Assembly (NCBI GenBank): GCA_019188255.1
Contig: JAETXT010000007.1
Location: 4,960,001-5,024,000 of the forward strand
Length of the DNA: 64,000 nucleotides
Direction: 5' to 3'
Origin: Verticillium longisporum
Taxonomy: Eukaryota; Ascomycota; Sordariomycetes; Glomerellales; Plectosphaerellaceae
Of this stretch, positions 3,169 through 43,800 are shown in pieces. The notes under the pieces are model-generated. The model saw only the letters and a list, made by a program, of their open reading frames with translations. It made no database searches and had not been told where the DNA came from. Position 1 is the stretch's first letter. Every line of letters starts with the position of its first letter. Both the position numbers and the translations under genes were made by a program.

Positions 3169-3520
3169 AGGAGGAGAGCGCGCCGCTGCGGTCCGAGGGC
3201 TCACAAAGACGAGATGACGAACCGAGACGAGAACGCTACGAGGATGGAAATGGGGTGCACGTGTAGGAACACCTAGAGCTGATTCATAGACGGACCAACT
3301 TCGCAATGATACCTTGGTATGCCTGCTCATTGCTTCTTTCTCTCCTCTCTCTCTCTTATTTCCCAACCTGTTGCCGTTGCGAAAACTCCCCCGCTCATCT
3401 GTATGTGTGCACGCGACACTCATGCATGCTTCAGCTGTTTCCTACTGATTTCTAGATGTCGCGATGTTGCCATCTACTGCAAGCTATCCTCCTTTACGCC
3501 CCAAACCAACGGCAAACGCA
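3169..3520. other. Convergent 3' intergenic region between CCT1 and the LYC1-like gene
   Basis: About 350 bp between two converging stop codons. It is T/C-rich in its second half and presumably contains the 3' UTRs and polyadenylation signals of both genes. I see no gene or repeat in it. Confidence 0.6.
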
Positions 3521-17317: not shown

Positions 17318-20300
17318 CTAAGCACCAATGCCGAAGCCGATGCCGAAGGCGACGCAAGTCTTGCCCTCGCACCTGGTGAAGGGAGGACAGCCGAATCCGA
17401 GAATGCCGCCGCAACGCTGCCCAGCGCCGGCAGGCTGTTGTGTGTTGCCGCCGCTGCTGCTGCCACCAGCGGTGACGCCTCCGCCGGCATTGGCACCAGC
17501 GGTGACGCCTGGGCCGGCATTGGCACCAGCGGTGACGCCTCCGCCGGCATTGGCACCAGCGGTGACGCCTGGGCCGGCATTGGCACCAGCGGTGACGCCT
17601 CCGCCGGCATTGGCACCAGCGGTGACGCCTCCGCCGGCATTGGCACCAGCGGTGACGCCTCCGCCGGCATTGGCACCAGCGTTGACGCCTCCGCCGGCGT
17701 TGGCACCAGCGTTAACACCACCGCTGGCTCCTCCGTTGGCTCCGGCAGTGGCACCTCCGCCACCATTCGCTCCGGCGTTAACACCACCGCTGGCACCTCC
17801 ATTGGCACCAGCGTTAACACCACCGCTGGCTCCTCCGTTGGCTCCGGCATTGACTCCTCCACCACCATTCGCTCCGGCGTTAACACCACCGCTGGCACCT
17901 CCGTTGGCACCAGCGTTGGCACCTGATCCGCCGGCGTTGGCCCCGGCGTTGACACCGCCTGCCCCGACATTGGCGCCGGCATTGGCACCACCAGTACCAA
18001 CGTTAGCGCCGGCGTTGACACCGCCTCCAGCGTTGGCTCCTGCGTTCACACCGCCGGTAGCGCCTCCGTTGGCGCCTCCATTGGCTCCGGCATTGACACC
18101 ACCTCCAGCGTTGGCTCCGGCATTGACACCACCAGTGGCACCTCCGTTGGCACCGGCATTGACACCACCAGTGACACCTCCGTTGGCTCCGGCATTGACA
18201 CCGCCAGTGGCACCTCCGTTAGCTCCGGCATTAACACCACCGGTACCGCCGTTGGCTCCAGCATTGACACCGCCGCCGACGTTGGCACCGGCATTGACAC
18301 CACCAGTACCGCCGTTGGCTCCAGCATTGACACCACCGCCGACGTTGGCACCGGCATTGACACCGCCTGCCCCGACATTGGCGCCGGCATTGGCTCCGGC
18401 GTTGACACCACCGGTACCGCCGTTGGCTCCAGCATTGACACCGCCGCCGACGTTGGCACCGGCATTGGCTCCGGCGTTGACACCACCGGTGCCACCGTTG
18501 GCGCCAGCGTTCACACTACCTCCAGCTCCGACGGTGCCGCCGGGCACGGTCACAGAGCCCTCACCACCAGCGCTGACGCCGGTCGAGGGTCCTGTGTTGG
18601 TGCCGCTAAAGGGGTTGAAGGTACACCTGCTGCGCGTAGCATCCTCGCAGCGCTGGAAAGGTCCGCAGCGTATGTTGCCGCAGAGGATGCCGGTGCCGAG
18701 GGTAACGCCCGTCTCGCCTGGGAGGCCGCAGACCTTGCCGCCAAAGCTGAACGGACCGAGGTTGATGCAGATCTGTACGCCCGGGCAGACCTTGTCGCCA
18801 CACTGGGTGTTCTGCGCGGGCGTTGTCGTGCCAGCGTCGCCAGAGAGGCCGCACGAGCTGGTAGCGGCACTCAGACATGTTTGACCGGTGGGGCAGGTAG
18901 CACTGCCGCACTTGGTTCCTGAAGGTGTCTCGCCGCCCTCGCCCTCGCCGCCGCCGCCGCCGCCGGTTGGCGGTGTAGTTGTTCCACCATTGCCGCCCGT
19001 GTTGCCGCCGATAGTAGGCAGGTTGACGCAGATGTAGGAGCCGGGAAGCGCGACAGACTCAATGCAGACCTCGGCTGACGAGCACGCGCGACCCGTGTTG
19101 CCGCAGTTGGTGCCCGCGTTACCACCCTGGGGCCCGGGAGCGAGGGCTACACAGACAAGAGAATTGCCAATGGGGCTCTGGATGCAGATCTGGGCGTTCG
19201 TGCAACGGCCGGCTCCGCAGGTTTCGCCGGTGACAGGCGGGGTGACGCCGGCCACACAGGTGCCGCTTCCAGAGCACTGCAGGGGGCTCAAGCAGGGTCG
19301 GGTCGCGCTGCAGGGGTCGTTGACGTTGCCGGGCGTCTCGGCCGGTGTCTCGCACGTCTTTGCACTGCCGCAGACGAGGGGCGCGCGGCACAGACGGGTC
19401 TCGCTGCAGGTTTCGCCGGGACCACCCGGTGTGTTGACGACAGGCGCCTCGCAGACGTTGCTGTTGCAGAGAAGCGGGCTCAGGCAGGGCGCGGTAAGGC
19501 TGCAAGACTCACCGACAGCACCGGGGGTCACCGTCGGCGTCTCGCACGTGCTGGACTCACCACAGACGAGAGGAGCCAAGCAGGGTTTCTGTGCGCTGCA
19601 GGCAGCGCCAGCACCTCCGGGAACGTCGGTCGGGGCGTCCTCGCAGACGTTGGACGAGCCGCAGACGAGAGGCGAGGCGCAAAGTTGGCTAGGACCGCAG
19701 GGCTGACCACTGCCAGCCGGAGGGGGCGTCGCACAGATGTCACCCTCGCCGCAGACAAGAGGCGCGGCACAGGGTTGAAGGGTGCCGCAGGTGGCACCGA
19801 GATCACCAGGAGGCGGGGCCGCGCAGACGTTGCCAGTGCCGCAGACGAGAGGAGTCTCGCAAGGCTGGTTGTCGCCGCAGGTGGCGCCGAGCTTGCCAGG
19901 GACAACGGGAGGCAGGGCACATTTGCTCTCGGCGCAGACGAGGCCAGTTGCGCAGTCGCCGATAACGCTGCATGTGTCGCCGACAGCTCCAGGCACATTA
20001 GCAGCAGGGGCGGTCGTGCACTTGTTCTCGCTCCCACAGATGAGGGGCGAGATACAGGGCTTGTCAGTGCTGCACTCGTCGTTGAGACCACCTTGTCCCT
20101 GTCCGCCAGTGGCGGGGATGCATACTTCGCCCTCACAGAGGAAGGGACTCAGGCAGGGAAGTGTGAAGCTGCAAGCTTCTCCGACGTTGCCGCCGGCGGG
20201 AGGAGTAATAGTTGTATCAACACAGAAGAGACCCTCGCTGCAGAACAGGGGACTCTCGCACGGCTTCAGAGGACCACAGACATCTCCGGCGCCACCAGGG

Positions 20301-23300
20301 GTTCGCGGTGAGGGCAAGGTGCACTTGTCATCGGTACCGCAGATGAGCGTGGACAGGCAGGGCAAGGTCGAGCTGCAAGCATCGCCGACGTCACCGGGCT
20401 GGGGTGTGACAATGACGGGGTCCGTCTCCGGCTCGGCGCAGATGTCGCCGGCGCCACAGATGAGCCCCGTCACACAAGGCAGGGTAGCGCTGCAGGGCGC
20501 TCCGAGAGGGCCAGGTTCAGGTGGGTTGGGAATGGTCGTGATGGGGCCGCAAGTGTTGTCAGAGCCGCAGGTGAGGCCAGGGAGACAAGGCTTCGTCTCG
20601 CTGCAAGCTTCACCACTGGCGCCGAGATCGACACCTGGCGTGGCGCAGACATTGGCGGCACCGCAGACGAGAGCTGGGATGCAGGGAAGGGTAGCGCTGC
20701 AATCGTCGCCAAGCTGTCCAAGATCAGGGACATTCGGCGTCGTCGTCGTCGGGGCCGCGCAACGACCGTTCTCGCCGCAGGTCAAGGGCGAACGGCAGAT
20801 GAGCGTGCCGTCGCATCTCTCGTCAATGTTGCGCAGGCTGGTGCAAGTGCCCGCCTCGCAGGCCAGGGGCAGCGAGCAGATATTGGTAGCATCACAGCTC
20901 TCGCCGAGGTTGCGACCACCAGGAGTAGGGACAACGCAGATGTTGTTGCTGCACTGGAGAGGTGTTGCGCAGGGCGTCTGGTCGTTGCAGGCAGCGCCGG
21001 CGCCAGCACCGGTGTCACCACCAGGGATGCCACCATCACCACCACCACCACCGGGAATGGTAACGGGGGGAAGACAGACGCCAGACTGGCAAGTGAGGGG
21101 CGAGCGGCAGGGGGTGTCGCCATTGCACTGCCCATTCTCGGCGGCGGGCAGCAGACATGTGCCGGCAGGGCCGCACACAAGAGGAAGAAGACAAGGAGAT
21201 TCGGTGCTGCACTGGCTTCCGGGGCCGCCAGCATCACCACCGTTGTTGCCACCGTTGTTTCCGCCATTGCTGTTGGGGTCGATGCAAATGTTGATGAGGC
21301 ACTCGAAAGCAGAGAAGCAGATGGCGCCCTCACCACAGGCGCCGCCGAGTCCGACACCGCCATCTCCACCAGTGGATGTCGGAGGGAGACAGACGTTGGA
21401 CTGGCAGGTCAGGGGCGTACGGCACGGTTTGTCGTCATCGCAAGCGCCGTCCTGATCCACCGGCGAGATGCAAGTACCGGCAGGGCCGCAGATGAGCGGC
21501 AGGGCACATGGCGAGGTGAGGCTGCAGGTGTCGCCAGCATTGCCGCCTGCGGCGGGAGGGAGAGACCCGACTGCGCAGACGCCGGAAAGACAGACGAGTG
21601 GCGAGCGGCAGGGCGCCTGATCGGTGCAAACACCGTCGAGATCAACCGGAGAGATACATGTGTTGGCGGGACCACAGATCAGGGGAAGGTTGCAGACGTT
21701 CGCGGCAGACCTGCGGAGAATGTCGACGACGGTGGAACAGCTATCGCCAAGATCACCACCACTTTGTCCTTGCACGATGACACAGACGCCGGCACGGCAA
21801 TCGAGAGTTGCTTGGCAGTCACCGACTGCAGCGCAGGCGTCACCCGGACCGCCGGAGCCGCCGGAGCCGCCGTTGTTACCGCCTCCGTTGTTCGTACCAG
21901 GGTCGACAGCACAAACGCCAGACTCGCAGACCAGAGGTGTGCGGCATGGAGCATCGTTGGAACAGGTAGCATCCAGCTCTCCGGGGAGGATACACACAGA
22001 GGTCGGGCCACAGACGAGCGGCACGTTGCAAGGGTTCTCGGTGCTGCAGGCATCGCCTGAGTTGCCGCCGGCTCCGGGCCCGGCGCCAGGAATGACGCAA
22101 ACACCACCAGAACACTCGTTGGGCGTCTGACAGGGCTGCTCGGTGCTGCAGACATCGCCTGGTAGACCTCCAGCGGGTGTTTCGGCGACAGCACAGGCAC
22201 CGTTCTGGCACGTAAGAGGGGGCCGGCAGGGCGCCTCGTTCGAGCAAGTATCCGCCAGACCTCCAGGAAGAACGCAGACGTTGGAGGGACCGCAGAGGAG
22301 GGGAACATTGCACAGCGTCTCAGGTCCGCAGCTGTCACCGCTGTTGCCGCCGCCTCCGGGGCCCGCGGGGGCGACACAGATGTTGGCCTCGCACTCGTTG
22401 GGTGCGAGGCAGGCCTTCTCAGTGCTGCACTCATCGCCGGGAAGGCCACCAGTGTTGCCGCCGCCGCCGGGGAGCTCGTTTCCGAGACCGGGAACGGTGC
22501 AGGTACCGGCTTGGCAGAGCAGAGGCGTCCGGCAAGGGGTGTTTTCGTTGCACTGATCACCAGCACCGGCACCGCCGCCACCTTCTCCGCCGTCGGGTGG
22601 GAGCTCGTTACCGAGATCCGGGGCGGTACAAGTACCGGTTTGGCATAGAAGAGGCGTTCGGCACGGGGCGTTGTCATCACACTGGTCGCCAGCGCCGCCA
22701 AGGTTGGCACAGATGCCCGCCACACAGTCCAAGGGGCTGCGGCACGGGGTCGCGCCACTGCAGGTATCGCCAAGGTCGCCAAGCTCAGGCGCGCCAGGGA
22801 GGACACAGACGTCGTTGCGGCACTCGAGAGGCGTAGCGCAGGGGTTGGCTTCATTGCACTGATCGCCAGCTCCGCCGCCGCCGCCGTTGTTGAGGCCGGG
22901 GTCGACAGCGCAGGTTCCAGACTGGCAGGTCAAGGGGGTCCGGCAAGGCTTGTTGTCGGCGCACTCATCGCCAGCGGCGCCAAGGAGAACACACTTGCCA
23001 GCTTCGCAGCCGAGTGGACTGCGGCACGGGTTCTCAGCACTGCAATCATCGCCCAGGTTGCCTTCGTCAGGGTTCGTCGTCGGTGCCACGCAGACGTCGT
23101 TGCGGCATTCAAAGGGAGCAGCGCAGATGGTCTCAGCGTTGCAGGCATCGCCGGGGCCGGCCTGCTCAGTGGGTGGAAGACAGGTGCCCTCCTGGCAAGT
23201 AAGGGGAGTCCTGCATGGTGTGTCATTGTCGCACGCATCATTGTTGTTGCCAGGGTTGACGCAGCTGCCTTCCTGGCATTGGAGAGGAAGACGGCAGGGC

Positions 23301-26300
23301 GACTCAGGGTCACAAGCATCACCGGGGCCTCCTGCATCGCCGCCTCCTGCATTGGGCGCAATGCAGACATTTGACTGACACTCGAGAGGGCTGCGGCAAG
23401 GCGTGTCGTCGTTGCACTCGGCGCCCGGGCCGGCCAGCAAAGCACACTTGCCATTCTCGCAGGTGAGGGGAGCAAGACAGGGCTCCGCTGCGCTGCGCGA
23501 GAGAGCGTTGCAGTCGTCTCCCAGTCCTCCCGGGGCGTCTTCGCCACCGTCGGAGGGCGCGAGGCAGATATCGTTCTGGCACTGAAGAGGAGCCTTGCAA
23601 GGAGATTCTGCGCCGCAGGCATCGCCAGGGCCGCCTTCACCAGGGTTTCCAGGTCCGACACAAATGCCGGCTTCGCAAGAGAGGGGCCGGAGGCAAGGCT
23701 TGTCCGCGCTGCACTCATCACCAAGATTGCCGTCACCTGGATCCTCTCGCAGCAGGCAGACACCATCCTCGCAGGTGAGGGGGGAGATGCAGGGACCGAC
23801 GCCATCGCCACAGGGGGCTCCAGGACCGCCCGTCCCAGGACCACCGACAGGGAGACAAATACCAGCCTGGCAGGTCAAGGGAGACTGGCAGGGTGCCAGG
23901 TTGCTTCCGCAGTTGGCGCCCTCGGAGCCGTCAGTGGGGCCGCTGGGGATACCGATCTCGGGAGGCGAACAGACGTTGCCCTGGCAGGTGAGTGGTGCCT
24001 CGCAGGTGGGAAGGTTGAGGCCGCAAGCATCGCCTTGTTGACCTTCATCTCCAGGGCCGGCGATCTCGGGAAGACAGATGGCATTCTGACAGGTAAGCGG
24101 AGCCTGGCACTCGGGGAGTCCCTCGCCGCAGGCATCACCGTTTTCACCGCCATTGTCGCCGCCGGGGGTGATAGGAGGCAGACAAATCTCGTTCTGGCAT
24201 TCGAGGCCTGTGCTACAAGCAGGGAGATTCTCGCCGCAAGCATCGCCTTGCTCGCCACCGTTGTTGAGGATGGGATCGATGGCAGGAAGACAAATATTGT
24301 TCTGGCACTCGAGTGTTGTTTGGCACTCGGGAAGACCCTCGCCACAGGCATCGCCCTGAGCGCCGCCACCGTTGCCGCCGTTGACAGGCGCAAGGCAAAT
24401 ATTGTTGCGGCACTCGAGGTTGGACTCGCAGGGAGGAAGCTCGGAGCCACAGGCATCGCCGAGGCTGCCTTCACCGTCACCTCCAGAGCCAGGGTTAGGA
24501 GGCAGACAAATGGCGTTCTGGCACTCAAGGGTAGACTGGCAAGGGGGCAAGCCAGCGCCGCAAGCATCTCCAAGCTCGCCTTCACCTCCATCGCCAGGAC
24601 CACCGATGGGGGGCAGGCAAACAGCGTTCTGGCACAGAAGGGTAGCTTGACAAGGCGGCAGAGCAGGACCGCAAGCATCGCCGAGGTTACCGCCATCGTC
24701 GCCGCCAGGAGTTGTCAGGGGGCCGAAGCAGACGTTGTTCAGGCAGCGAAGTGGTGCCTTGCAGAGAGCAAGATCGGGGCCGCAAGCGTTGCCAGCTTCA
24801 CCTCCGCCAGTATCACCGGGTCCGCTAATGGGTGGCGCGCAAATGTTGTTCTGGCAGACGAGAGTGCTCTCGCAAGGAGGTAGGTTAGGACCACAGGCAT
24901 CGCCTGTCACGCCGCCATCATCACCACCAGGAGGAATAGTGGATGGCAAGCAGATGTTGTTCTGGCAGCTCAGAGAGCTCCGGCATGGAGGCAAACCAGG
25001 TCCACATGCGTCATTGACGTCACCCTCGCCGCCGGGCACTCCCAGAACGGCACATTCACCGCCACGACAGAGAAGAGGCTCGCCACAAAGGGGCAGGTTG
25101 AGGCCACAGGCACCACCCTCTTTGCCTGGACCAGTCACAGGGTCGCCGGGGCCAGTAACGGGGTCGTCAGGGCCAGTCAGAGGCGCGCAGACGCCACTCT
25201 GGCAAACAAGAGGGCTGGTGCACTGAACCAGGTCGGGGCCGCAGTTGTTGTCGTCGACAGAAGGGTCTACGCAAAGGTTGTTGCGACAGATCTGGTTGCC
25301 CACGCAAGTCTCGGTGCCACACTGCGCAGGAGGCAATTCGGTGCAGACGCCTGTCAGGCAGAGAGGGTTGTCTTCAGGACAGGCGTTGCCAGGAGTTGAG
25401 CAGTTATCGGGATCATTGCTCAGGTTGACGCATGTGTTTCCATCGACACAGATTTCGCCGAGTGCGCAAGCGGTAGTTCCGCACTGGCCAGGAGGATTGG
25501 GGCCGTCAGGACGCTGGCAAACTCCTGCTGCGCAGACTTCACCGGCGGAGCACTTGTTTCCAGGAGTACCGCAGTTGTTCAAGTCGGTAGAGGGGTTGAT
25601 GCAGATGTTGTTGATGCAAATCTCGATATCAGGCAGGCAGGGGTCAGCTCCACACTGGGGAGGAGCTGCGCCTCGACAGATGCCCGCAATGCAAAGAGGG
25701 GAGGCATCGGGACACTGTCTGTCAACGGTGCCGCAGTTCTGGGGGTCGGTGCCAAGGTTGATGCAAGTCTTGTTCTCGACACAAACCTCGCCGTCGTCGC
25801 AGGGGCCGTTGGCACCACACGCAAGGGGCTCGCCTGGCTCTCCAGAGCCATCTGGCGTGCCATTAGGTGGAGTGCGTACACAGGAGTCCAGAACGCAGCT
25901 GAAGGGAGCCACGCAGTCGGAGCCGCAAGCTCCAGGACCTTCAACGGGCACGCACTCGCCGTCGAGACAGGTCTCAAAAGACGTACATTGGCGAGATGAT
26001 GATGGGGTCTGTCGAGATTTGAGTCGGGCAGAGTCCCTGAAGCAGTCATCCGGATTTCCAAGAACGCGGCACTCATTGGCGATACAGAGAGAATGGTCGC
26101 CGCACGAGGGGTTGCACTCAGACTCGTCGGGACCAGGCTTTCCGCCAGGGATGCCAACGCCGCCCGAACCGCCTGGCTTGCCTGGCTTGCCAGGTTCGCC
26201 GGGGCCGCCGGGGCCGCCAGGGAAGCCAGGTCCGCCAGGGAAGCCAGGTCCGCCAGGTCCGCCAGGGAAGCCAGGGATGCCAGGTCCACCAGGGAAACCC

Positions 26301-27733
26301 GGGATGCCGGCAGAGATGCATTCGGAGTCCAAGCAAAGAGTGCCAGGAGGGCATGTCAGGGCTTTGGGTCCGCACGCATTGGGGTCCTCGCCAGTGTCGA
26401 CGGAGACACAGCTTCCGAGTATGCATACGTTGTTCGCGGGGCATGGCTCGCTGTTCTCGCAGCTCTGCGGATCGCCGGTAACGTCAAGACAGACTTTACC
26501 GCCAAGGCAGGCCTGGTGAGGAGCACACTGCTGCAAGCCGCACTGCAGGACGGGCTCAATCTCGGAAGGATAGCACTCCTTATCGTAGCAGAAGTAGCCG
26601 TCACCGCACTTTCCGTCACAGCCAGACGCGCCAGATCCAACGTCGAAGTCAATGCAGCGTCCCCGGCAGCAGAGTGAGCTGGAGGAGCATGGCTTGCCGG
26701 AGCAGTCTTTGGCGTCTCCAAAGACATCGACGCAGAGACGGCCGGCTTGAACCTTGCCAGGTGGGCAGATTGGCTCAGGCCTCCAGATGGTGTTTGAGGG
26801 TCGGTCACCGTGAACGGGCTTGCGGTTGCCGTCATGGTGAGGCTTGGAGTTGCCGCCGGCGGCGCTGCCAGATCCAGGCTTGTCGCCATGGCCGCAACTG
26901 GGGTCGTACAAATCGCTGATGCAGACGCCAGAGACACAGACCGAGCCAGGCTCGCAGTGCGCAACTGGCTCACCGCAGGTGGTGTTGTCTGTGCTGATGT
27001 GAATAGGAATGACTTCGCCATCGTAGCAGATGCTGCCAGGAGCGACGTTGTCACATGTCTCCCCGGCTCCTAAGTCCAGGGGCAAGCATTCGGAGGAGAC
27101 ACAGAGACTTCCAGAGTCGCACGCGGTTTCGTTGGAGCCGCAGTGGGTTGAGTCGGTACCAATGATGAGGTGCTCGTAGGTGCACTCAGCGTCCTTTGGG
27201 CCACAGCCATTAGATCCGAGAGTGATAGGTGTACATGAATTTGCGTAGCAAGCCCAGCCAGGATTGCAGGCAGTTTTGTGGGAGCCTTCAGCTCCGCAGC
27301 TCGTGCCGTTGAAACCAGTATCAATGGGTTGCACCACGCCGTTGACACAGACCTGGTTGCTGCCACAGTCTTCTTTGGCAGGGCCACACTGAAGAGGGCT
27401 CGCGAGGACCTGGATCGAGCGGCAGACATCTTCGTCACACCACTGACCAGGCCAGCACCTTTTGCCAGCACAGCTAAGCGGGTCTGAGCCGAAGATGAGG
27501 TCCTGACATGTATCGAGTACGGAAAGCTGTCCAGGTCCGCAGCCATAGCGGGCGGGGTCGATATTGATTATGACCGAAGAACATGTGTTATCATGTTCGC
27601 CACGGCCGAGGAGGAGGTTGTCGTTGTTGTTGGCCACCCCAGTGTCTTTGATAAGGACACGGGCATCAGCAAGGGGCAATCTCGCGATGGATGACAAGGC
27701 CGCCAGACCAAGCCAGCTGATGTGGTTGCTCAT
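17318..27733 (-). CDS. Giant secreted cysteine-rich repeat protein with Gly/Ala tail (3471 residues)
   Basis: One uninterrupted 10.4-kb frame from ATG 27733 (context ACAACATGAG) to TAG 17318. Not a family I can name. Residues 1-24 are a signal peptide ([10 protein letters not shown] to LADA). About 25-470 hold irregular cysteine clusters of the form CxxxxxxCxxGxxC. About 475-534 are a collagen-like Gly-X-Y stretch (repeats of [16 protein letters not shown]). About 535-900 hold more CGxxxCxxGxxCxxxxC blocks. About 904-2830 hold 57 hand-counted units of about 34 residues, pattern C-x(4-8)-C-xx-P-L-x-C-x(4-5)-C, joined by Gly/Pro/Asp linkers. About 2830-3045 are further cysteine clusters. About 3045-3435 are cysteine-free repeats of [17 protein letters not shown], followed by a last [20 protein letters not shown] motif. 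No clear GPI signal. A secreted wall-associated structural protein or adhesin is the best inference; the four-cysteine units recall EB-module or Dickkopf-like cysteine motifs only loosely. Confidence 0.85.
17471..17710. repeat. 30-bp coding minisatellite in the tail of the giant protein
   Basis: Eight head-to-tail 30-bp units in exact register (starting 17471, 17501, and so on), each encoding a decapeptide of the type [10 protein letters not shown] on the minus strand. Two units read TGG in place of TCC (proline in place of glycine in the protein), and the last unit begins to diverge. Further less regular Gly/Ala/Asn units continue to about 18590. Confidence 0.95.
19250..25021 (-). repeat. 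Tandem array of 57 four-cysteine units within the giant protein
   Basis: Protein-level tandem array. Units 1-12 (nearest the N-terminus) have long CG..LPPC spacing and QNxIC endings. Later units have shorter C(S/D/N)xxxPC spacing. The DNA copies are diverged, so the array is old compared with the Gly/Ala tail. Count made by eye; borders are approximate. Confidence 0.85.
26131..26310 (-). repeat. Collagen-like Gly-X-Y segment within the giant protein
   Basis: About 60 residues dominated by Gly-X-Y triplets such as [17 protein letters not shown] and GIPGGKPG, on the minus strand between two cysteine-rich blocks. Proline is frequent at X and Y. Two units of GIPGFPGGP are nearly identical at DNA level. 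Confidence 0.85.
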
Positions 27734-30700
27734 GTTGTCGATGAGCTGTGTCGATGCTCTGTTGTTGGTAGGAGTCGAGGAGAAACGCCGGGATCTAACG
27801 AGAGATACGCCATGCCTCTATATAGAACCAGGGACAAGCCAATGTCAAGTTGGTGATCGCAGCCGGCCATTTCCTCATGCGGCGTTTCTCATGAGGCGTT
27901 TTACATGACTACCTTTGCATACACCATAGGCCCGGGCCCAGAACCCGGGGACGTATATCCTCGTGGGAACACTGACCTGCACCCACAAGTTGGCGGAGGA
28001 ATGTTGGTGAGAAATCGAACCGTTCGAGCCCTCTGAGGCTGGCCATGACTGCATTCGGAGAGAAAACACGTTGAAGTTATCCCGAGGTACAGCTGTATTG
28101 GGCCCTGTCCATCGCAGGCAACGGGGCAGTGCTTCTGGGAATGGCAGCCATTGTGCCCTTCTCATCCGGTTGTTTGCGGCCCATGTTGAACACGTCTTTC
28201 TCGGTTCAGAAGAAGAGACCGATCAATGCTAGCCCTATACCAAAGACATGTTGGTGACTAGTCTCGGTAGATTGATAAGACCAGAGAGCTCCATTCTCTG
28301 CCGCAAGCCCGAAAGCGGTGGTGCTACAAAGGGTAGGAGCAGAGAGTTCAGACTGGATAGTATCGTTAACATACTGCAGCTACCGTTGAATACACATGCT
28401 CGCTTTGGGTACTGGACCATAATCTGCTTGGCAAGGCGCCGCTTGGCACTCGGGGACTCGGCTGTTCCAAGACACTGGTGTCACCTGGGGAAAATGCAAG
28501 ATCCAGTCCGACCTGTCCGCATTCTGTTTGTCGTAATCCGGTTGACTGGCCAGCAGTAGAGGTTCTGGACTTCAATATGGATCCAAGTTGTACAAGAGGG
28601 GCAGCAGGCTTGGGCAGGAGGATGCTGCATTTGGTAGAGCGGTGGTGTTAGGGACGTTGAAGGCTGTGATACGTTCATGGAGTCGCTAATGTGGAGCGGG
28701 GTATGGAGTTGGCCCTGACGATCTCAATGCGTCCATTGATCATCTGGATGCCAATCGATGGATGCCAGGAAGAGATAGTTGGAGTTCCAATCATGGTTGG
28801 TTGATCTCGGACGGTTCGTTCGCAGAGGTTCTGCTGTCCCTGATGACTTGTCGTTGGACAGGCGATGGAACTCAAGCCTTGGGCCCAGAACCCGGGTGAG
28901 CAGGCAGGTTGGGGGTCCAGGGGTTCCTTCCCCACCACAACTCATCGGGAAGGGGCGATTTGAAGAAATGAGGGGTCATACTGTGGGGCACCCACCAATG
29001 AGCGACAGACAGAACACAATGGACCCCTTAAAACTCGGAACAACCCGCATGCCAGATGAGCTGACTCATCAGGAACAACAGAGCTGCCTGGCGTGCCAGT
29101 GCCCAAATGGATGACAAATCCGTTCAGTTTCAGCATCGAGTTTGCTCAGTGAGACATGCATTTTTGCCAATTCTGCCACTAGGACTGCAAGCCGGCCGGG
29201 CGATTGTCTTGCGGCTGCTAGCATCCAGAAACAGGACAACAAGGGTTCTCCGAGTCTCGAGGGTTCAAACTCTTCTGTCTCGACACCATGCTCCACGGAC
29301 TGTGTCGATCACAATATCCCTAGCTGTCTTACGTCCCAAGCAGTACAGCCATACAACCCTCCATTGCACCTATGCTGGCTCAGCAGCACTATACTATCCG
29401 GTCTATCCGGTATACCTTGGGGCTGTTGCTTCTGTTCCTCGACCCGAGAACACGTTTGCGACATCCAGAGGTATTAGAAGCGAGGTGGCGTTGACAGAAG
29501 TTCGCCCCTGCGCCACCCAGCAATGTGTTTGCAGACGAACCAAGAAGGTTTGGATCAGAGCTGTCACTGAACCATCTCGGTCTCGGCGCTCCGCACGTCT
29601 CAAAGCTCCACCGCTTTGATCACCATGGCATCCAACACTGCTTCTGAACTACCCGATTCTGCAGCCATGCATCCAGGCGATGCTGTGTGAAGTGGTCAGG
29701 TACTGTGCCAGACTACTATCCCGCCCAAATGCTTTCATGGTTCTCAGCGCAAGGTGCTGGACGCGAGTCACGAGGGAATTTCCTGCTCAACTCAAAGATT
29801 GCGGGCTTCTCATCCCGACATCTGGCTGTAGAGTACTGCAAATCATTCGTCTGAACCTCGGAAACCCTACTGCGATCTTGCATGAACCCCGCCAGCTCAC
29901 CTTCACCAATGTATTGACGAAGGTGCTGAAAACACCCCCGCACCTAGCCGGCATCTATTCAGTCCGTCTCGTCCAGTGCTCATCGGGCCGAGCTCTTTCA
30001 CCATGCTACATTGCAGTGATGAGGGTCGATTGAAAACGTCTAGTGCTTCCCTCCGCCGTCGAAAGCTCGGCCTGGGCTAAGACGCACTGGAGGAGGAGCC
30101 GTCTCCAGTGCAAAGTGGGTGTCTGGGGTCGGGTGTCTGTGCTGTGAGACCCCCTGGTTCTGCACCAGGCAGTTTTGGCGCAGGAGATGTGATGACAGGT
30201 CACAATTTCCTTGTCTGTTCGGACTCTGCACCTCATGCCACCGGGTTATCGGAAACATCTCTGCAGAGTTGATCACGCTAGATCACTGTTGGCCCTCATA
30301 TCGTCAGATAACGGATCACCTCGTCACTCCCTAGAGACTTGGCAATCACTGTTGCTCTTAATAGTGACCACGTCTTCGCCGTCGGGCCTTGGTATTTCTG
30401 GCATCTACCGCAAGCTGTCCAAAACCAGCTTCACGACTGGCATTCCTCTGGGGTTCGGTGTTTAAATTTCGGATTTCGGGGGTTTGATGTGGGTCTTCTT
30501 CCCTTTTTGCCCCAAGAGTGGTGTTCACGATGAATGCATGTCGTGTACCCCTCCGATGATTTCAGGAAGAATATGGTTCCTCGCGTCGAGATTCAAAGCG
30601 TACTTGCCCTATGGCTTGCTTGGCTTATATCAACACATTTCCGGTGCTTGACGATAGAGATGTTGCATCTTGGGCGTTCGTGGCGTCGTGATTGACTTCA

Positions 30701-33700
30701 GCCACACATCTCCAGGGTCCAATGTGCCGAGACACCAAGATTCCAGTACAGGAAACCTCGTTAGCACCAACAATGCGGAGCTTCTCTAGAATGATTGCAG
30801 AAGAATAGGACCGGCTTCCGATAGCTGCTGGCTCATGATCGGGGCAGCAGCTGCAGACTTGGTCGGCTTACCTAAGGTTCCTTTGGCAGATCCCTCAGTC
30901 GAGAATTCGTGATTGCGCTTTTGATCAAGTCGTCTGTGTTGGGTTTTACCGTACCTCATGATGCGTGGCTGAATAACCGTGTCTACCCAACTAGTAGTTC
31001 TCCGCTCCATGGGGGGACCGGCCCGGCCACCCAGGTCCGCATGCGATCGACCCGTGCTTCGGGGCACCATGATCCTACAGGGCTGCAGGGCTGCAAGCTT
31101 GACCGAAGATTTTCAGGACTCCTCCGTCTAATATCTTCAAGAAGATGCTCCTCTACGGTCTAGTCTCGGGATTCGATTTCAGACACGAAGAGTGGCAACA
31201 AGAAAAGTCCTGAGAACGGTATCCACGACCACAGCGTGGTTCTTTGCCCTCTAGGAGGCCTCGATCTCGGGCCTGAAACTTGTGACCTGTCAAAAACTCA
31301 ATTGCGGTTCGCCGTTTACGGCATCACTATCAGTTGTCGCGGGCACGACCCGCTTCCCATACTTGTCGAGCATAAGCGTCCTTCGGATCAATCTAGCCGG
31401 TTGATAATGCCCGGGCCAGAACGGTCCTGCACCGTATCTTAAGACACATTCATAAGGGCATTGTCGTGCATGGCTTCCATCGAAATTTCTGAGCACTTGG
31501 TAGGCACACCTTCCGGATTCATTGAGCCGCCCGCGAGCCAGCACTTTTCTCAAGTGTTGATCGCTGTTTATCCATGCGAGGCAGGTCGGGCTGCTGGCGT
31601 TTTCTTGCAGACGCATCCAGTACGGCGAAGAAGAAATTCAGCACTTGGCGCATTTTTCCATGCGGGCTTTCAACAGAAGAAACCTCAGCTCTGAGGTTGA
31701 AGATTGCTCGCCGCCAAGCAGCTACAGCCTAGCTATCCCCAAGCTCCCACCCGTAAGATGCAAGCTTTCAATGTCTGTTATGCGTGCGGAATAGTCTCCA
31801 CACACGCGTAAGCTGAGGCTTCTTCTCGCAGATGTGCAGACTGCAGAGCAGTTGCGTTGTCACGGTGTTCCAAGGAGTGATAGCAGGCGCAAGCCGTGGA
31901 GGTTACGCTGCTGGCAAATTAGGGGTCTTCCCACGCACCAACACGTTCATGTGTTTCGGACTCAGAACTACACGCATCAACGCGATCTACATGTGTTGCA
32001 TTTTTACTGCCTAAGCTCGATGCTCGAAGGGTTGGGCAAACGAACCTTATCGCAAGCCGTGTGGTGCGGCTGGGAACGGGAGACCTACAGGGTCCGCCGA
32101 TCAACTGTGCCGTGTCTTAGGGAGAATCAGGGGATCAACCAACACGTGATCTGGGATGAAGCACGACGTCTTGATGCTGAAATTTCTTTTGATGGACTAT
32201 GAGTCGTTACGAAATCTGCGCAAACCATGGCAACTGCAATGAAGTACTGTTCAATATGGCCGATGTGCTTGGAGGCGTAAATCGTCATGTTCTCGACTTC
32301 GAGCGCCACAATGTAGCCAGCCTCATGTCGCTGTTCGTAGATTGACACGAAATTTTGGGAGTAAAAAGTTCGGTGCCTTAGATGACGATTCTGTGGTGAT
32401 GCTCAAGTAACAGCAGCTAGCCTGAACTTTCAAGCCCTCCGTATGAGCAGGTACGTGGCACTTTGTAAGCTGAAGTTATTGTGCATGCATAACTTATAAG
32501 TTTCCTGTCTTGTCCATCAAATCGGCCGACCACTTCAGCCTTAGTCGAATGGGAAAACAGTCTCCTGGATCAGGAAGGGATGGTTCTCAGACAATGTTTC
32601 ATGGTGTGCCTTGATGGATACTGGGAATGGTTGAGGGAAGCTCCAGAGAGATGGCTTCAGTGATTTATGGAACCGCTGGACGCTTTCCTGAATCAGACTC
32701 TGTAGCCTGGTCAAATCAACGTTGTGATGTTGCTGGCTTTGAAATCAAATGATCCTTGCCTGAGAGTTCGCAACTTCGATGCTTAGTGTTCTATGCAAAA
32801 TCTTGTTGATTGAGATGCTTTGATCATGTGGTGGTTCTTCTAGTCCTCGATCATCAGCAATCATCCGTCTATTATCACTCGATCGCTCAAGCTCCCAGTC
32901 AAAGCCACCGCGTCCTAGCTTGCCACCAAGTCAAACCCAGAACGCATTCCCTGCCATCGATCAACCTCTCTAATCAGAAGACACCTGTGAAGCCACGGGA
33001 CAGTGCGCTAGCTCAGGGGTTCGGGACTACGACTGTCAGAGCGTTGTTTAGAGCAGAGTGAAGAGGTCTTCCAACCGTAGTCCCCAGGCAATAGAATATA
33101 GGTAGGGGGTCGGAACACATCTGAATTCTGAACTCCCCAGAACGGACGGTCCTCCGCAGTCTGTCTATATACGTTTCTCGTAACATTTAGTCCCTGACCG
33201 ACCCCCCTGTCTGGCGGCTCCGCAGGGTCGCCTGACAACGAGAGGGCGTATACATGGGCTGCGGAGGGCCCAGCTAGTTGCGAAGTGCTAGATTTCGGAT
33301 ATACTCTAACCCCTACCAGAAAGGAGCTGCAGAAGACATATTCACTCTATTCAATCACATGCTCTGACATGTGTATTTCCACCGCTGCTGTACCCCACCC
33401 ACCATCTGGCGCAGTACTTGTAGCTGAACCTGAGATGGCATCTATGACGTTTATATTACGAGATCAGTCAACAGGCAAAAGTTCTTTTTATAGCATTCAT
33501 GCAAGGGATACCTACCCTCATCGTTACCAGAACAGGCGCGAGGAATTGTGATAGCAAGGTTGTAACTACTAGAGTAATATTGAGAAGCAATACTTCAAAC
33601 TGACGGGAGAAATATGCTTTGTTGGACATAACCCTCACGAATAAGACAGCCTCAGCACCAGTCAAGACCGTAAGAGCAACTTTGGCCGTGGCCACATCTT

Positions 33701-34467
33701 GCCTCTCACCGGAGACCGTCCTCTCGCAACCCGAGCCGCTGTCCTTGCGTCGATCTCATGAAGTCCAAGCTTAATGCATTAATGATATCGTCTAATCAAG
33801 GCTTCACAAGGTTAAGCAAGGCATAGAGTCTATGAAGCAACACACGTCGTCCATCAAGTTACGGCGGATGAGCCGAAAGCACAATAGATGGGGGAAGTCA
33901 TACTCTTGACTGACGCTAGAAACGCCACTTTCTAAATCTGAGGACTAGTTTAATGAATGATCAGAGGGACAACAATTCTAGAAGGACGTGAATCATACCC
34001 GCATATCAATCTCGAGAAGTAAGACTTCTGCTGTTGGGATGCGTTCAACTTTCTTCGAAATTGCGCTGGAATTCGGCTCCGAAAAAGAAGCCTAGGGACC
34101 AGACGCATGGAATACTCCATCGTCCAGCTTGGCAGCTGTATGACCTGTCCATATCTATCATATGCGTCTTTTGGTGAGAGACCCGTGGAGAACATAGGAC
34201 GTCTTGTCGACATTGACGCAACGACGACCACAATGCATAAAAACTGCAAACAAGACAGGGCAATAGCACTGGATCTTACACTGCCATACAACGTCCCGCT
34301 CGACGAAGGTGCGCATAAGCTAAGAGAATAGAAAATAGACCATGAGGTCAACAATTAAGTACAATTCTTAAGCAACTAGCTATACAGCAAGATAAATCTT
34401 ATCCATCGTTAAGTCATACAAACATGATACAGGAAGTCGTCCGATCCAACAAGGTACACGGCCGGCG
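27734..34467. other. 6.7-kb gene desert
   Basis: No open frame longer than about 125 codons exists on either strand here, whereas even the antisense strands of neighbouring genes hold frames of over 400 codons. Base composition is visibly more AT-rich and stop-dense. I found no recognisable transposase, reverse transcriptase or host gene. It contains a probable solo LTR (33034-33237) and two same-orientation copies of GGGCCCAGAACCCGGG (near 27933 and 28881). The stretch next to 27734 must be the promoter of the giant gene. Decayed, possibly RIP-mutated transposon DNA is the likeliest content. Confidence 0.5.
33034..33237 (-). mobile_element. Probable solo LTR of a retrotransposon
   Basis: A 204-bp segment with perfect 6-bp inverted ends (TGTCAG...CTGACA) starting TG and ending CA, as in LTRs. 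It is flanked by near-matching 5-bp sequences ACGAC on the left and ACGAG on the right, a possible aged target-site duplication. Read on the minus strand it contains a TATA-like CGTATATAGA about 75 bp from the left end, where an LTR promoter would sit. No internal retrotransposon domain or second LTR is visible, so it would be a solo LTR left by recombination. Confidence 0.5.
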
Positions 34468-36438
34468 TCAGGAGGGCGTCAACATGACGACGATCCAGTC
34501 GACCACGCCTGCCCCATCTTTCAGGGGGGTCCAGTAACTCATCACGCCATCTGCCTTGGGCGTCTCAACTCCCACAAAGCTCGCGAAGCCAGATCGGCTT
34601 CCCGGCCGGCTGTGCTTCTTCTCCCTGGGCGCCTCCCTGGTCTCATCCTTGGGGCGGCCAGTGAGCCCACCGACGAGGCTCTGTTTGCGCCGATGATTGG
34701 GGCGATGCTTCCCAATGTCAAGGACAGCTTGCCTGCCGTCCCTCAGCACGCGCTCGCGAACAGTGTTGCGGAAACTCTTCGTAACGGATGGCGACTGTGC
34801 GTGCTCTGCTAGCACGGTAAAAATGTCCTGCCGGGTGACGGCTTGTACAGTTTGGTCGATGCCTAAAATTGCCAGGGCATCCTGTGAGGCAAACGCAATG
34901 TCAAGTCGCCATGACTTCTCTTTATCAGAACCGGGCGACGGGGCTCGGGAAGACCGCGCATGCTGCAAAACGATGTAGCGCGAATAGAGATCCTCTGAAG
35001 TCGGCAACACAGTCAGATTTAACGTGCTCGCTGACGAAAGCGTAGGTGAGTCCGGGGCTTGCTTGTATACATGAGATGTGGGGGCCTTCTTGAATTGTTT
35101 GAAGAAGCCCTTCGTCGCATTGCTTCCGCTGCGTTGACGCACGCTCGATCGCCTGTCTGCTTTGCAGTCCCGGGTACTGAGTCGACGTCCGAGGGAAGGA
35201 TCCTGCATGAGCCTGCTGTCCTCCACTTGATCCAGATCCGCAGGGTCGTGGCTTAAAACGCGAACAATGTCGTCTTGGCTGCCGATTGTCTCAGACACGT
35301 TGATGTGCCCGCCGAGGTAATGCCGCACCGTCCCGTCCGTGGTAGTCAGGGGAAGCAGATACAGAAGGTTCCAAAAAGGCCAGCTGTCTCGTCTGTAGTT
35401 GAGCATGAGCTCGCAAAATGCTTGTCCCCGAGAAACAGCCTCACGCATCCGTCTCAGGGCAGTCTTATCAGTATGCGAACCATGGAGTAAGTCGTAGCGC
35501 CGCCCGACTGCCTCTTGTCTTCCGTAGCCCGTGACCGCGAGGAAGCCGTCGGAGGCTGAGATGATAGAGCTGTCCGCAGCCTGTGCACTCATGAGACAGA
35601 ACGCGTCGCCGAGGCCGGGGTATCCATTTGGGCGTGGTCCTTCCTCGCAGGTGAAAGCCGAGCCTGCGCAGGAGACCAGCTGGTGCCTGACAAAAGATGG
35701 GTATAGGTCTTTCCAGACCCTGCGCTCCACACAGAACTTGGACTCGGCGAAGATGCTCTCGAGCCCAGGCAAAACAGCCGTGTTGAGATGCTTCATGTCG
35801 CTGTTGAGAGACTTGGCAACAGGAAATGGCAAGTTGGTTGGTGAGGGCACAGTCGCCACCTCTGCGATGAAGTGTTCAAGGGAGCTTGCGTAAGATTGCA
35901 GACGCATGAGAAACTCGACATCCGTCTCACATCCACGACTTTGAGCGAATCGCAAAAGTCGCCGGCAAATGCGGGGATTGGCGAGAGCTGATTGAAAAGT
36001 GTCATTGCTCCAAAAGTCGGGAATCGGGAGAGGTTGCTCAGATGTTCCGGCGGTGGTGAGGAGCGTGGGAGTGCCGGCGGCGGGCTTGCTCGGTTCGTTT
36101 TTGATCGCCACGCCGTCGATGCTACCCCAGACTACACGACCGAACGTGGGCGACCTGGGTGAGCCATCCGAGTTGTAGTCTGTGTAACGCCGGAGAGCGT
36201 CCTCGTTGGTGTGTAGTGAAAGGCCCGAGTTGCTTCTCAGCCGCATGGCGAGCTCATTCGGGCGCCCACTTCCACTTCGCGGGGTCGGCGGGGGGGAGAC
36301 GACCATAGGTCGCGGGCGTGCGTGGCTGGCTTTCATGGTGTCAATGAAAAGCCCGGGCGGTGCCCGAGAACCGCCAGGGCCGAGTTGAGGGGATGATCTC
36401 TCCCGTGGAGGTGTGGGAGGGTCATAATGAGAGCCCAT
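34468..36438 (-). CDS. RGS-LOV (PAS) protein with a cysteine-less LOV domain
   Basis: Single-exon protein of 656 residues. Residues 1-140 are disordered and Pro/Ser-rich. About 145-258 resemble an RGS domain (WSNDTFQSAL... to WKDLYPSFV), the fold that speeds GTP hydrolysis on G-alpha subunits. About 275-382 are a PAS domain of LOV type: the FLAVTGYGRQEAVGRR stretch and NYRRDSWPFWNLLYLLPL match LOV strands and flavin-contacting asparagines (347, 357). The photoreactive loop, normally GxNCRFLQG, reads GRRYDLLHG (312-320), so cysteine is replaced by Tyr315, and the late Gln is His378. Known as a fungal RGS-LOV architecture. The tail (about 415-656) is basic and Ser-rich. Start at 36438 (AAACATGGG context) is preferred over an ATG at 36507, whose extra residues look like translated AT-rich leader. 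Confidence 0.85.
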   Translation of the reverse strand: MGSHYDPPTPPRERSSPQLGPGGSRAPPGLFIDTMKASHARPRPMVVSPPPTPRSGSGRPNELAMRLRSNSGLSLHTNEDALRRYTDYNSDGSPRSPTFGRVVWGSIDGVAIKNEPSKPAAGTPTLLTTAGTSEQPLPIPDFWSNDTFQSALANPRICRRLLRFAQSRGCETDVEFLMRLQSYASSLEHFIAEVATVPSPTNLPFPVAKSLNSDMKHLNTAVLPGLESIFAESKFCVERRVWKDLYPSFVRHQLVSCAGSAFTCEEGPRPNGYPGLGDAFCLMSAQAADSSIISASDGFLAVTGYGRQEAVGRRYDLLHGSHTDKTALRRMREAVSRGQAFCELMLNYRRDSWPFWNLLYLLPLTTTDGTVRHYLGGHINVSETIGSQDDIVRVLSHDPADLDQVEDSRLMQDPSLGRRLSTRDCKADRRSSVRQRSGSNATKGFFKQFKKAPTSHVYKQAPDSPTLSSASTLNLTVLPTSEDLYSRYIVLQHARSSRAPSPGSDKEKSWRLDIAFASQDALAILGIDQTVQAVTRQDIFTVLAEHAQSPSVTKSFRNTVRERVLRDGRQAVLDIGKHRPNHRRKQSLVGGLTGRPKDETREAPREKKHSRPGSRSGFASFVGVETPKADGVMSYWTPLKDGAGVVDWIVVMLTPS

Positions 36439-39400: not shown

Positions 39401-40714
39401 CTGCTTGCCTGCCCTCGCCACAGGGTATTCGCGACCAGGCAGGTCTCAGTCGATCGTACCGGGTCATCGGCCCACCAGAGGGGAAGAAGCCCTGCAGCGC
39501 CAGGTGGCAGGCAAATGCAGGGGCACATGCTTGACGCAGGGCGACTGACGCTGTAGATGGCGAAGTCGAAAATGCAAAGTGCGCATTAGGAGGATGATGA
39601 TGGGCGATCGCAGAATGCTGATGCTTGCTTTGGGTCGGAGACGACCGAAAGTCTACAGGTGCCAAAAAAAGAACGAGCCGGGCTGGGGCGCCACACCCGT
39701 GGCAAAGATTGGCGTGAGGCGCAGCAGGGAAACGCCAATGCGGACCCCTGTCGCCATGCACCTTGGGGTGGCTTGCGTGGCATTCGAATGCTGGCATTCG
39801 GGTGCCAGAGCGCCTCTCTGTCCTCAAAGGACTGCTGTTGTCGGATGCCTCCCAAATCTCTTCATCGTGCTGTCATCATCTGCATCGCTGCCAACTTTTG
39901 CGGAGACTGATCGTCCCGGCAGTTTGGATGGCCGCCTCCACGGTTCCACGGTGCGTCCGGATGGTCATGATCCCTGGATAGCTGAGTGAGGGTGTCGTTT
40001 TATGCCGTCGGTACACGTGTCTAGCTGTTGATGGCTTTCTGGGTTGCCGGCATGGTTGTCTTTAGTCTGCCTATACGAATCCAGGGCCAAGGACGTTTCT
40101 GCCTTGAGCCATATCACATGATACGGAAACTTGAGTTCAATGCGGTTGCGATATTCCATGTCTGATGTTTTACTACCTTGTTTGAGCTTACCTCTCTCAG
40201 GCACACGACCTTTGATCACTAAGCTACCAGGCACCTAGCTGGGTACTGTAGCGGAATGCAGGTTCATGTGTTGACTGATCTTGACGTTGAGACTGCGAGC
40301 TTCTCGCGACACCCGAAAGCGAGAAGCTGCCCGTAAATCGTATAGACAGACCATAGCATTCACTGTCACAGATTAAACCATCTCGCATCTGATGCGACTG
40401 CGACGCTTGCTCGGTTTCGCACTTTCGCACACAATGTCAACTGTGCATCGTGCTCGCATCGGGAAAAACCCACACGTGATTGAACCTGAAGGCTGCCAGC
40501 TGTCTGCCACTCGTTCCCAGGTCTCCCGAGGCTTCCCCCTAAGCGCCAGCCTGGCGACGTCATCCGACAACATGCTCTTTCACGAGCTTCCCCTCGAGCT
40601 TCCGACCTTCCCCATCCCAGGCCATTGATGTAGGAACACGCATCGATACCATCAAAGCCCGACCTCACAACGCCCCCGAGGCTTCCTGGTACACACCGTG
40701 GTGCTGCCGTCATC
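36439..40714. other. 4.3-kb intergenic region, no gene recognised
   Basis: Divergent interval between the RGS-LOV and SIP3-like genes; promoters at both ends. Many short frames (up to about 180 codons, overlapping on both strands) but none with family features or consistent codon use. It contains a 9-bp inverted repeat (36959-36967 with 36990-36998), a perfect 14-bp palindrome CTTACCTAGGTAAG (38205-38218) and other CCTAGG-type motifs. Confidence 0.5.
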
Positions 40715-40786
40715 ATGTCCGAGCCAGCACCAGCACCAGCAGCTGCTGCGGTGCCGTCGAAACCACCAACGACGACAACGAGCTCC

Positions 40787-40824
<38 letters not shown>

Positions 40825-43800
40825 CAGTCCAGCAATCCCCGTCGGCCTCAACGAAGCTGGACTCGACTCCCCCACATTTCGCGCCACGGCCGCCCACTTC
40901 TCCGACCAGGTGGAGGCCATTGAACGATGGCTCGACGACTACACAAAAGCGACCTCCAAGGTGACACGCGAGATCCTCGCCCTCGAAGACAACATCAACC
41001 TCTGCCTCGCCAAGAGCTTCCCGCCCGCCGCCGCCGTCGACGGCGTCATCGACAATGACTACACCCTGCTCGCCCTGCGACGATCGAGCGATGGCATCCG
41101 CGCTTGGTGGTCCCAGGTCATCTCGACCATGCGCAGGATGGACGGCATCAACGTCGACCCCATCCGCGCCTTCCTGACAGGCGAGCTGCGGTCCTTCAAG
41201 GAGACGCGCAGGGCCCTCGACAGCGCCCAGCGCCAGTTTGACCAGATGCTCGCCCGCTACGTCGCCCAGCCCAAGACCAAGGAGCCCTCGTCGCTGCGCG
41301 AGGACGCCTTTGCCGTGTACGAGGCCCGCAAGATCTACCTCGCCGCCTCGATGGACTTTTGCCAGATGGCGCCCCACCTGCGCTTCTCCCTCGACAAGCT
41401 GCTCGTGCGCGTGAGCTCCGACATGTGGAAGGAGCTGAAGCGCGCCCACGAGTCGGTCATTGACATGATGAAGTGGGGCACCGAGATGGACCGCATCCGC
41501 GGCTGGTCCAAGGAGATGGACGCCACCGAGTCCGTCTTCCGCCGCGAGCTCATGAGGGTCCGCAGGGAGATCAGCCACGGCGCCAAGGAGGCCACCAAGC
41601 CGTCGCGGGAGCTCGAGGATTACAGCGCCTCGACCGTGCCCTACCTCGGCAGCCGCGGGCCCGTCAACGTGCAGACCCAGGACCAGGCCGCCGTCATCTC
41701 CGAGAAGCAGGGCTGGCTCTTCCTGCGCAGCGTCTACGGAAAACCTGCGCGAACCAACTGGGTGCGCCGGTGGTACTACTGCCGCGATGGCATTTTTGGC
41801 TGGCTCATCCAGGGCCCCCAAGGTGTTCTCCAGGGCGACGAGATTGGCGTCCTCCTGTGCAGCGCCAAGCCGGCCGTGGCTGAGGACCGCCGCTTCTGCT
41901 TCGAGATCAAGACGAAGAGCCAGACCATGGTCCTGCAGGCCGAGACGCAGGGCGAGCTCACCGAGTGGCTCGAGGTGTTCGAGGTCGCCAAGAGGAAGGC
42001 CTTTGACGCCAGCATGGGCCGGGACAGCACGCCTCTTCCCTCTGGCATTGACCCGGCCTTTCACATCACGCCGCCTCCCGTTCCCGAATTTTCGGCCAAG
42101 TCCCTCGATGCCCAGCTCGCCGGCGACGAACTGCCCGCTGCCCTCGACAGGGCAGGCACTCTACCCGTGCCTGGGCCGGACGGAAACCTGACGAGCCGCG
42201 CCAGCTTTGACGTCAACGCCGCTGGTGGGTCTCGCCGCTCCATCACGGCGCTGGGGCGCGATCTGGGTCGCGAGATGATGATCCGTGAAGAGGGCGAGTC
42301 GAGCCGGGAACATGCGGCAAGGCTTATCCAGAAGCTTGATCTCCACCGCAGAGGCACCTTTGGCGGCGAGCTCGACACGCGTGGGCACGGAGCTGGCGCG
42401 CAGGGCGGCGGCGGCGGCATCGCGAGCCTCATTTCTGCCAGCCACGGCTTGCTGCCGGGGCATCCCGCGTCCATCATGGCACCTGTTTCCGGAAAACCTG
42501 CACAGAGCCCTGCGTTCGCCCCTCGGGAGGTCCTTCAGGGCCACCTGGCGCCCGCTACGCTGGCCAAAGCGCCGGTGCTGACGGCTCTCAGTCGCACAGC
42601 CGTTGTCGTCACGGGCGACAAGGGCCTGGCGCTGGATGCAGCCAGTCATCTGCCGGCGGCCGTCATGGCGAACTACTGGGGCAGCAATCCATGGGGTACG
42701 GTCTACGGCACTGGCCACGGCAGCCCCAGGACGCCTGGGCAGATCGACGAGAACCCATTCGGCCTGGTTGTCACCGAAGTCGGCAAGGCTGGTGAGGAAA
42801 AGCCAGCGCCGCCGGTCAGCGCACATCGGAAGACTGTCAGCGTCGACACGACGAGGGACGCGCAGAAGACAGCCCAGCCTAGACAGCAGGTCGAGACGTT
42901 CCCACCAGGGTACCCGCAGGATCTGCGTGCACAGCATCCCCAGTTTCGACTCCTCTTCCCCGCCGTGCCGCTCGACGAAAAGCTCGTCCTCGTCTTCAGC
43001 GCTGCGTGGACCAGCTCGACGGGCAAGGAAGACACGGCGCCGCAGGGCGAGGGCATCGCAGGCAACGGACGCATCTTCGTCACATCGGACAACTTGTACT
43101 TTTACGGCGAGCAGCTCGGTCTCGTCATTGCGTACACCATGAGCCTCGACATCATCACAGAAGTGACGGCGGCGCCAGGAAAGGAGTGCGACTACATTTA
43201 CCTTCATCTCGGAGAGGAGTCAAACGACACTGGCTATTCACGAATCACGATCAAGATTTTCTTGGAGAACGTCGTCTTGCTCCACGCACGTCTTAACCTC
43301 CTGGTGGACGACCTCCAAGCCGAAGAGCCCATGGCGCTCCAAGAGCTTGTCACGGCGCTCATCGGACTCGAGCACGAGAACACCCAACGGCGTCCCAGCG
43401 TCGACAGCTGGGAGGAGATCTCGTCCAGCACACCGTACGACGACGGCACGACGACGGGGCGCCCCGCGCGGCGCGGCGGCCACGCCCCGGTGCCACGGCT
43501 CCACCTCAGCCACTCGCACCTGCGGCCGGCTCCCAAGTTCCAGATCCCGATGCACCCGGTCGTGTTCGAGCCGGACGACATGCAGCACAAGGTGGCGGAG
43601 CGGCACTTTGAGCTCAGCGCCAAGGCGTGCTTCCACGTGCTCTTTGGCGACAAGAGCTTCGTGTTCCCCAAGCTCTACTTTGAGCGGCGGGCGCAGCGGA
43701 TCGCGCAGGGCCCGTGGACGCTGGGCGACCAGGGGCGGCTGCGGCGCGAGTTCAAGTTCAAGGTCGACTACGCCGACATGCTGGGACGGTCGAGGTCGGC

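Follow-up and report, generated by a model that had tools for sequence, protein, structure and literature searches.

A 3471-residue cysteine-rich protein of Verticillium longisporum and its giant single-frame relatives

Described relatives of the protein and its modules

We analyzed a cysteine-rich protein encoded by one 3471-residue open frame in a 64,000-base stretch of the Verticillium longisporum genome, hereafter the window (C14:4960001-5024000; the source genome has 72,013,526 bases in 16 contigs, here numbered with the prefix C). Several described systems share features with this window protein. Plant STIG1 proteins are small. The STIG1 family (PF04885) is similar to the window protein and its relative on contig C10 in having paired four-Cys modules, whereas the window protein is giant and its whole-protein score is below the cut-off of the family. 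STIG1-like repeats are also observed in the MXAN_6577-like family (NF041328) and in a 369-residue protein with a signal-like start from a metagenome-assembled genome (MAG) of Phycisphaerae (L052, 2908-4017); unlike the window protein, these are bacterial, and the Phycisphaerae protein has about one tenth of its length. DUF7107 (PF23416), EB, and Dickkopf_N have an eight-Cys pattern similar to that of pairs of the window units. The leech peptide HSTX-I (PDB 6wqr) has the Cys spacing 5-5-4, as do the commonest window units, and its disulfides link Cys 1-3 and 2-4 (excerpt of PMC5845541). It is, however, a short sodium-channel peptide, and at E 0.091 it provides a geometric guide rather than a shown relative.

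Two fungal systems are similar in other respects. According to an excerpt of PMC7776561, MCL1 of Metarhizium is a collagen-domain protein that functions in immune evasion, is expressed in blastospores, and is said to be so far unique to this genus. The window protein, also fungal, has a collagen-like Gly-X-Y block. MCL1 is not known to have a four-Cys array of the window-protein type. The Kex2-processed repeat proteins (KEPs) are described as secreted fungal repeat proteins (excerpt of PMC6339444). The paralogues of the window protein on contigs C2 and C16 suit this class, whereas the window protein itself has no repeated Kex2-type sites.

The curated cut-offs are 24.1 bits for STIG1, 24.6 for DUF7107, and 100 for the MXAN_6577-like family. 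In Pfam (E up to 1), the whole window protein matched only STIG1, with seven stretches at 22.2 bits; no DUF7107, EGF, or enzyme domain was reported, nor was the Collagen family for the 19 Gly-X-Y triplets. One stretch reached 27.2 bits to STIG1 in a six-frame scan, and the first 2448 residues of the C10 protein scored 213.7 bits with STIG1 and 22.5 bits with DUF7107. In NCBIfam, the window protein matched the MXAN_6577-like family with E 6.5e-15 and 55.3 bits, below the cut-off (best stretch 699-850).

Units that lie only 8-10 residues from each other form 13 pairs in the window protein, 14 pairs in its copy on contig C3, 16 in C10, and one each in C2 and C16. The searches covered 37 of these 45 pairs (13, 7, 16, 1, and 0, respectively), the eight omitted being near-copies. 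At E up to 0.1, DUF7107 matched 33 of the 37 pairs, STIG1 24, EB 14, Dickkopf_N 7, and several toxin and metallothionein families one or two; with DUF7107, the pair at residue 2070 scored 19.6 bits. The profile search of unit pairs against PDB yielded the leech peptide (E 0.091), fibrillin (0.18), and Dickkopf-4 (0.7). In a structural model of a unit pair (mean pLDDT 74.8, pTM 0.43), each of the two units has strands near its third and fourth Cys. Foldseek and VIA-align comparisons with this model returned small cystine-rich peptides and wheat germ agglutinin, none of them significant; kinship with a family absent from the structures compared is compatible with this outcome.

The initial annotation could not assign the protein to a described family and suggested profile searches of the unit and of the whole protein. 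For the whole protein this nearly stands: no protein with the same architecture was found described in the accessible parts of open-licence papers. It does not stand for the modules, which are of known kind (STIG1, DUF7107, and MXAN_6577-like, mostly below the cut-offs), nor in view of the giant paralogues and of an orthologue fragment from V. alfalfae. In the same papers, as far as accessible, the size, the zone order, and the head shared by three different bodies are likewise not found described.

Architecture and conservation of the window gene

The frame contains a single stop, and the remaining five frames across the same interval contain 19 to 130 stops each. Re-translation reproduced the 10.4-kb frame of the initial annotation, with its coordinates and length, and placed it on the minus strand, which had been left unstated. 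The protein contains 18.9% Gly, 10.1% Pro, and 10.1% Cys; the hundreds of cysteines reported earlier amount to 350. It has one Met and 43 Trp, Tyr, and Phe residues in total, and residues 26-3471 have a calculated pI of 4.05 and a mass of 329 kDa. Thus, the composition is acidic, with few aromatic residues.

A fixed order of distinct zones, as noted earlier, was also observed: head, Gly-X-Y block, paired units, array, Cys zone, tail, and cap (Table 1). The collagen-like block consists of 19 consecutive triplets from residue 476. A PDB match to a spindle fibril (E 6.9e-11, residues 476-530) covers this block and was taken as low complexity. The Gly/Ala tail comprises 403 residues without Cys between Cys 3037 and Cys 3441; residues 3031-3430 contain 38.8% Gly, 23.5% Ala, and 15.2% Asn, and 33 AGAN motifs are mostly 10 to 12 residues apart. 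At the C-terminus, the cap is followed by a short hydrophobic end, in which no glycosylphosphatidylinositol (GPI) signal was recognized by eye (no GPI predictor was used).

Of the 71 strict four-Cys units of the protein (C-x4-8-C-x5-6-C-x4-5-C), 14 precede residues 876-2830, 56 lie within this region, and one follows it. The commonest spacings are 5-5-4 (27 units), 6-5-4 (18), and 5-5-5 (18). A tighter pattern, C-x4-7-C-x5-C-x4-5-C, occurs 68 times, whereas 200 shuffled versions contained it 0.5 times on average and at most 3 times. The repeat array postulated earlier is therefore real, but its count of 57 has to be corrected: 232 Cys form 58 units, 56 strict and two with a longer first loop, joined by linkers that range from 9 to 28 residues, and further units flank the array. 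The former description of the units as cysteine-knot-like was abandoned. A knot requires three disulfides, and the inhibitor cystine knot, with six Cys per unit, is ruled out by the four Cys of each unit.

Evidence for a real gene comes from its homeologue on C3. This copy has 3485 residues and is 93.2% identical to the window protein over 3392 aligned residues. Divergence at synonymous sites (dS) is 0.216 and at nonsynonymous sites (dN) 0.034, a ratio of 0.156, and 115, 127, and 491 differences fall at codon positions 1, 2, and 3, respectively. None of the 23 alignment gaps breaks the frame; the largest two, of 58 and 34 residues, correspond to about two units and one unit. Of the 346 aligned Cys positions, 345 agree and one differs. 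In the tail, dS is 0.675 and the ratio of 0.096 should be read with care, because this dS is probably inflated by misalignment of repeats. These comparisons indicate that the window gene is kept under purifying selection.

The same alignment bears on the earlier claim that the gene is intronless. When it is divided into 14 windows of 250 codons, position 3 has the largest count of differences in each, with exactly half of them in one window and more than half in the other 13. Such a pattern speaks against large introns or non-coding segments, and the frame is open without any intron; a short in-frame intron is still compatible with these observations.

The order of units is conserved as well. 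The best C3 matches of the 58 array units ascend in 56 of 57 steps, and the cores of orthologous units are on average 95% identical (57 of 58 were comparable) vs. 67% for the best paralogous ones. Since both the order and the identity of orthologous cores are preserved, the array predates the split of the two parents, its units having been kept one by one.

Table 1. Features of the window gene and positions of its giant paralogues (plain coordinates refer to the window).
Feature	Position	Strand	Remarks
Single open frame, 3471 residues and stop codon	17318..27733	-	First base of ATG 27733, stop ends at 17318; kept in frame on C3
Residues 1-25, likely signal peptide ending Ala-Asp-Ala-Arg	27659..27733	-	From sequence and hydropathy; putative cut site (no signal predictor used)
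Residues 26-475, Cys-rich head	26309..27658	-	Common to C3, C2, C16 and (in part) C10 frames
Residues 476-532, 19 Gly-X-Y triplets	26138..26308	-	
Residues 533-875, STIG1-like paired four-Cys units	25109..26137	-	
Residues 876-2826, main array, 58 four-Cys units	19256..25108	-	
Residues 2827-3037, Cys zone with longer loops	18623..19255	-	
Residues 3038-3440, Cys-free Gly/Ala/Asn tail with AGAN motifs	17414..18622	-	
Residues 3441-3471 and stop, four-Cys cap (3441-3460), then short hydrophobic end	17318..17413	-	
Putative TATATA box, 91 bases before ATG	27819..27824	-	Stretch also upstream of C3 copy
C2 paralogue	C2:3408175-3415116		2302 residues; pair with C16
C16 paralogue	C16:455033-462286		2406 residues; pair with C2
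C10 relative	C10:2012842-2029374		5501-residue single frame

Giant paralogues and database relatives

The head of the window protein recurs in the C2 and C16 proteins and partly in the C10 protein, all encoded by single frames. Head identity is 28 to 34% between gene types and 91 to 93% within two pairs. Searches of the source genome with the C10 and C16 heads, considering the best candidates only, yielded the window, C3, C2, C16, and C10 frames and no sixth, and no homeologue of C10. When this genome was scanned in six frames with STIG1 (E up to 10), 42 of 44 matches fell in the five head-bearing frames; the other two, both weak, lie elsewhere (on C8 and at C16:771213). The same scan of 14 control genomes gave a match in none.

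The bodies that follow the head differ between the gene types. The C2 and C16 proteins contain ten [KR]RQ sites each, as compared with at most two in 1000 shuffles of each. Nine of these sites form an array with spacings 62, 62, 63, 61, 57, 64, 62, and 61 in both proteins, and 15 of the 16 repeats have eight Cys, the remaining one having seven. By sequence, these frames look like Kex2-cut precursors of 8-Cys peptides. The C10 protein has PPGQ repeats, a stretch of about 2500 residues with only three Cys, 94 N-x-S/T sites, and a Thr-rich C-terminus with NCGR four-Cys units.

A tentative reading, which we hold to be possible but rather less than probable, is that Verticillium has a hitherto undescribed family of giant extracellular proteins, each encoded by a single frame, with one Cys-rich head and three bodies: (i) a strand of 58 beads with an elastic tail, (ii) in the 5501-residue member, a body with a Cys-poor, glycosylatable stretch of about 2500 residues, and (iii) a Kex2-laddered polyprotein shedding 8-Cys peptides of about 60 residues. 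If so, structural strands and peptide precursors would share the same head. These giant proteins, apparently an unstudied family, probably either coat the fungal cell or leave it.

Length and shared words restricted the protein-database candidates that were scored; the following counts are thus compatible with a wider occurrence in fungi. The whole protein yielded no relative among 2449 scored candidates, residues 1-470 yielded one among 5532 (P0001), and a five-row profile built from the N-terminal 1000 residues (345 in C10) yielded one among 7988 (P0002). P0001, a V. longisporum protein, is identical to the C16 frame at 2085 of 2090 aligned residues and lacks 25, 31, and 260 residues of this open frame, as wrong intron calls would give. 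Its UniRef label, EGF-like domain, was rejected, as no EGF family of Pfam matched the window protein at E up to 1, nor did any match C2, C16, or the N-terminal part of either C3 or C10 (2440 to 2448 residues) at E up to 0.05. P0002 is a 514-residue V. alfalfae entry with a precomputed PF04885 annotation; over residues 1-475, it shares 93% identity with the window protein and 95% with the C3 copy. It changes frame inside the Gly-X-Y block and stops there, which may reflect either a true truncation or an error in the sequence or gene model. As both entries are partial, fungal proteins of such kind and size, whether secreted or on the surface, may escape secretome surveys.

Searches of genomic contigs gave 27 stretches with one relative, the Phycisphaerae MAG protein mentioned above, and those of viral contigs gave four stretches and no relatives. 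The only PDB match of the head alone, at E 0.72, was taken as chance.

Possible role of the protein and alternative readings

The initial annotation suggested an extracellular structural polymer or adhesin. A secreted, modular protein is consistent with the hydrophobic N-terminus followed by an Ala-Asp-Ala site, the high Cys content, and the lack of an enzyme domain in Pfam; structural polymer, adhesin, and effector are inseparable by sequence. We favor a secreted protein of the extracellular matrix or cell wall acting as a long flexible disulfide-beaded strand, a reading to which we give about an even chance. The signal peptide would be removed, and each four-Cys unit would become a small folded bead in which Cys 1 pairs with Cys 3 and Cys 2 with Cys 4, as suggested by the leech peptide of the same spacing, which pairs in this way. 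The linkers would hold the chain in an extended shape, the short Gly-X-Y block would form a stiff spacer, and the Gly/Ala/Asn tail could provide extensibility or pack against the tails of other chains. As a GPI signal is not evident, the protein may be released into, or held in, the wall or the surrounding matrix. Targeting or binding is probably a function of the head, which all three gene types share.

If these proteins are polymers of the wall or matrix, they are relevant to the cohesion of Verticillium hyphae or resting structures and to their attachment to surfaces. The bead array would also be a natural disulfide-stabilized polymer of interest for materials work.

Among the alternatives, the one with the best remaining chance, albeit unlikely, is a large apoplastic effector or sugar-binding coat whose head or units bind chitin, the plant wall, or host proteins and shield the hyphae. 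The source genome fits that of a plant pathogen, and many fungal repeat proteins are effectors. Wheat germ agglutinin was the top Foldseek match of the unit pair and also appeared with VIA-align, but the fold scores are not significant. The low dN/dS of 0.156 points the other way, as do the array units, which are almost free of aromatic residues, unlike hevein-type binding sites. A surface adhesin, with the head as a sticky tip and the array and tail as a stalk, is somewhat less probable still. A distinct head does precede long repeats and a flexible tail; on the other hand, no adhesin domain was found in Pfam, and with no GPI signal seen by eye there is no evident covalent wall anchor.

A third alternative is that the window protein is a Kex2-cut precursor of many small Cys-rich peptides, as its C2 and C16 paralogues with their regularly spaced [KR]RQ sites might suggest. 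Such repeated sites are missing here: [KR]RQ is absent from both the window protein and its C3 copy, in which KR or RR dipeptides number only two and one, respectively (KK was not counted), which makes this origin improbable. Finally, a non-functional relic or several genes joined by chance, compatible with the lack of a full-length database entry among the scored candidates, is highly improbable given the frame, dN/dS, and Cys conserved in the C3 homeologue and the close V. alfalfae orthologue of the head.

In the region upstream of the gene, the first 2.7 kb are 88% identical between the window and C3 copies. An out-of-frame ATG at -80 is close behind the TATATA box and may be outside the transcript. 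In the approximately 6.7 kb upstream (window 27818-34470), the longest stop-to-stop frame has at most 184 codons. The chaperonin gene of the window likewise has a near-identical partner on C3. The Rfam search gave one tRNA as the sole match, and a second long single frame lies at window 40634-45154; its product, counted from the ATG, is a 1480-residue BAR-PH-VASt protein.
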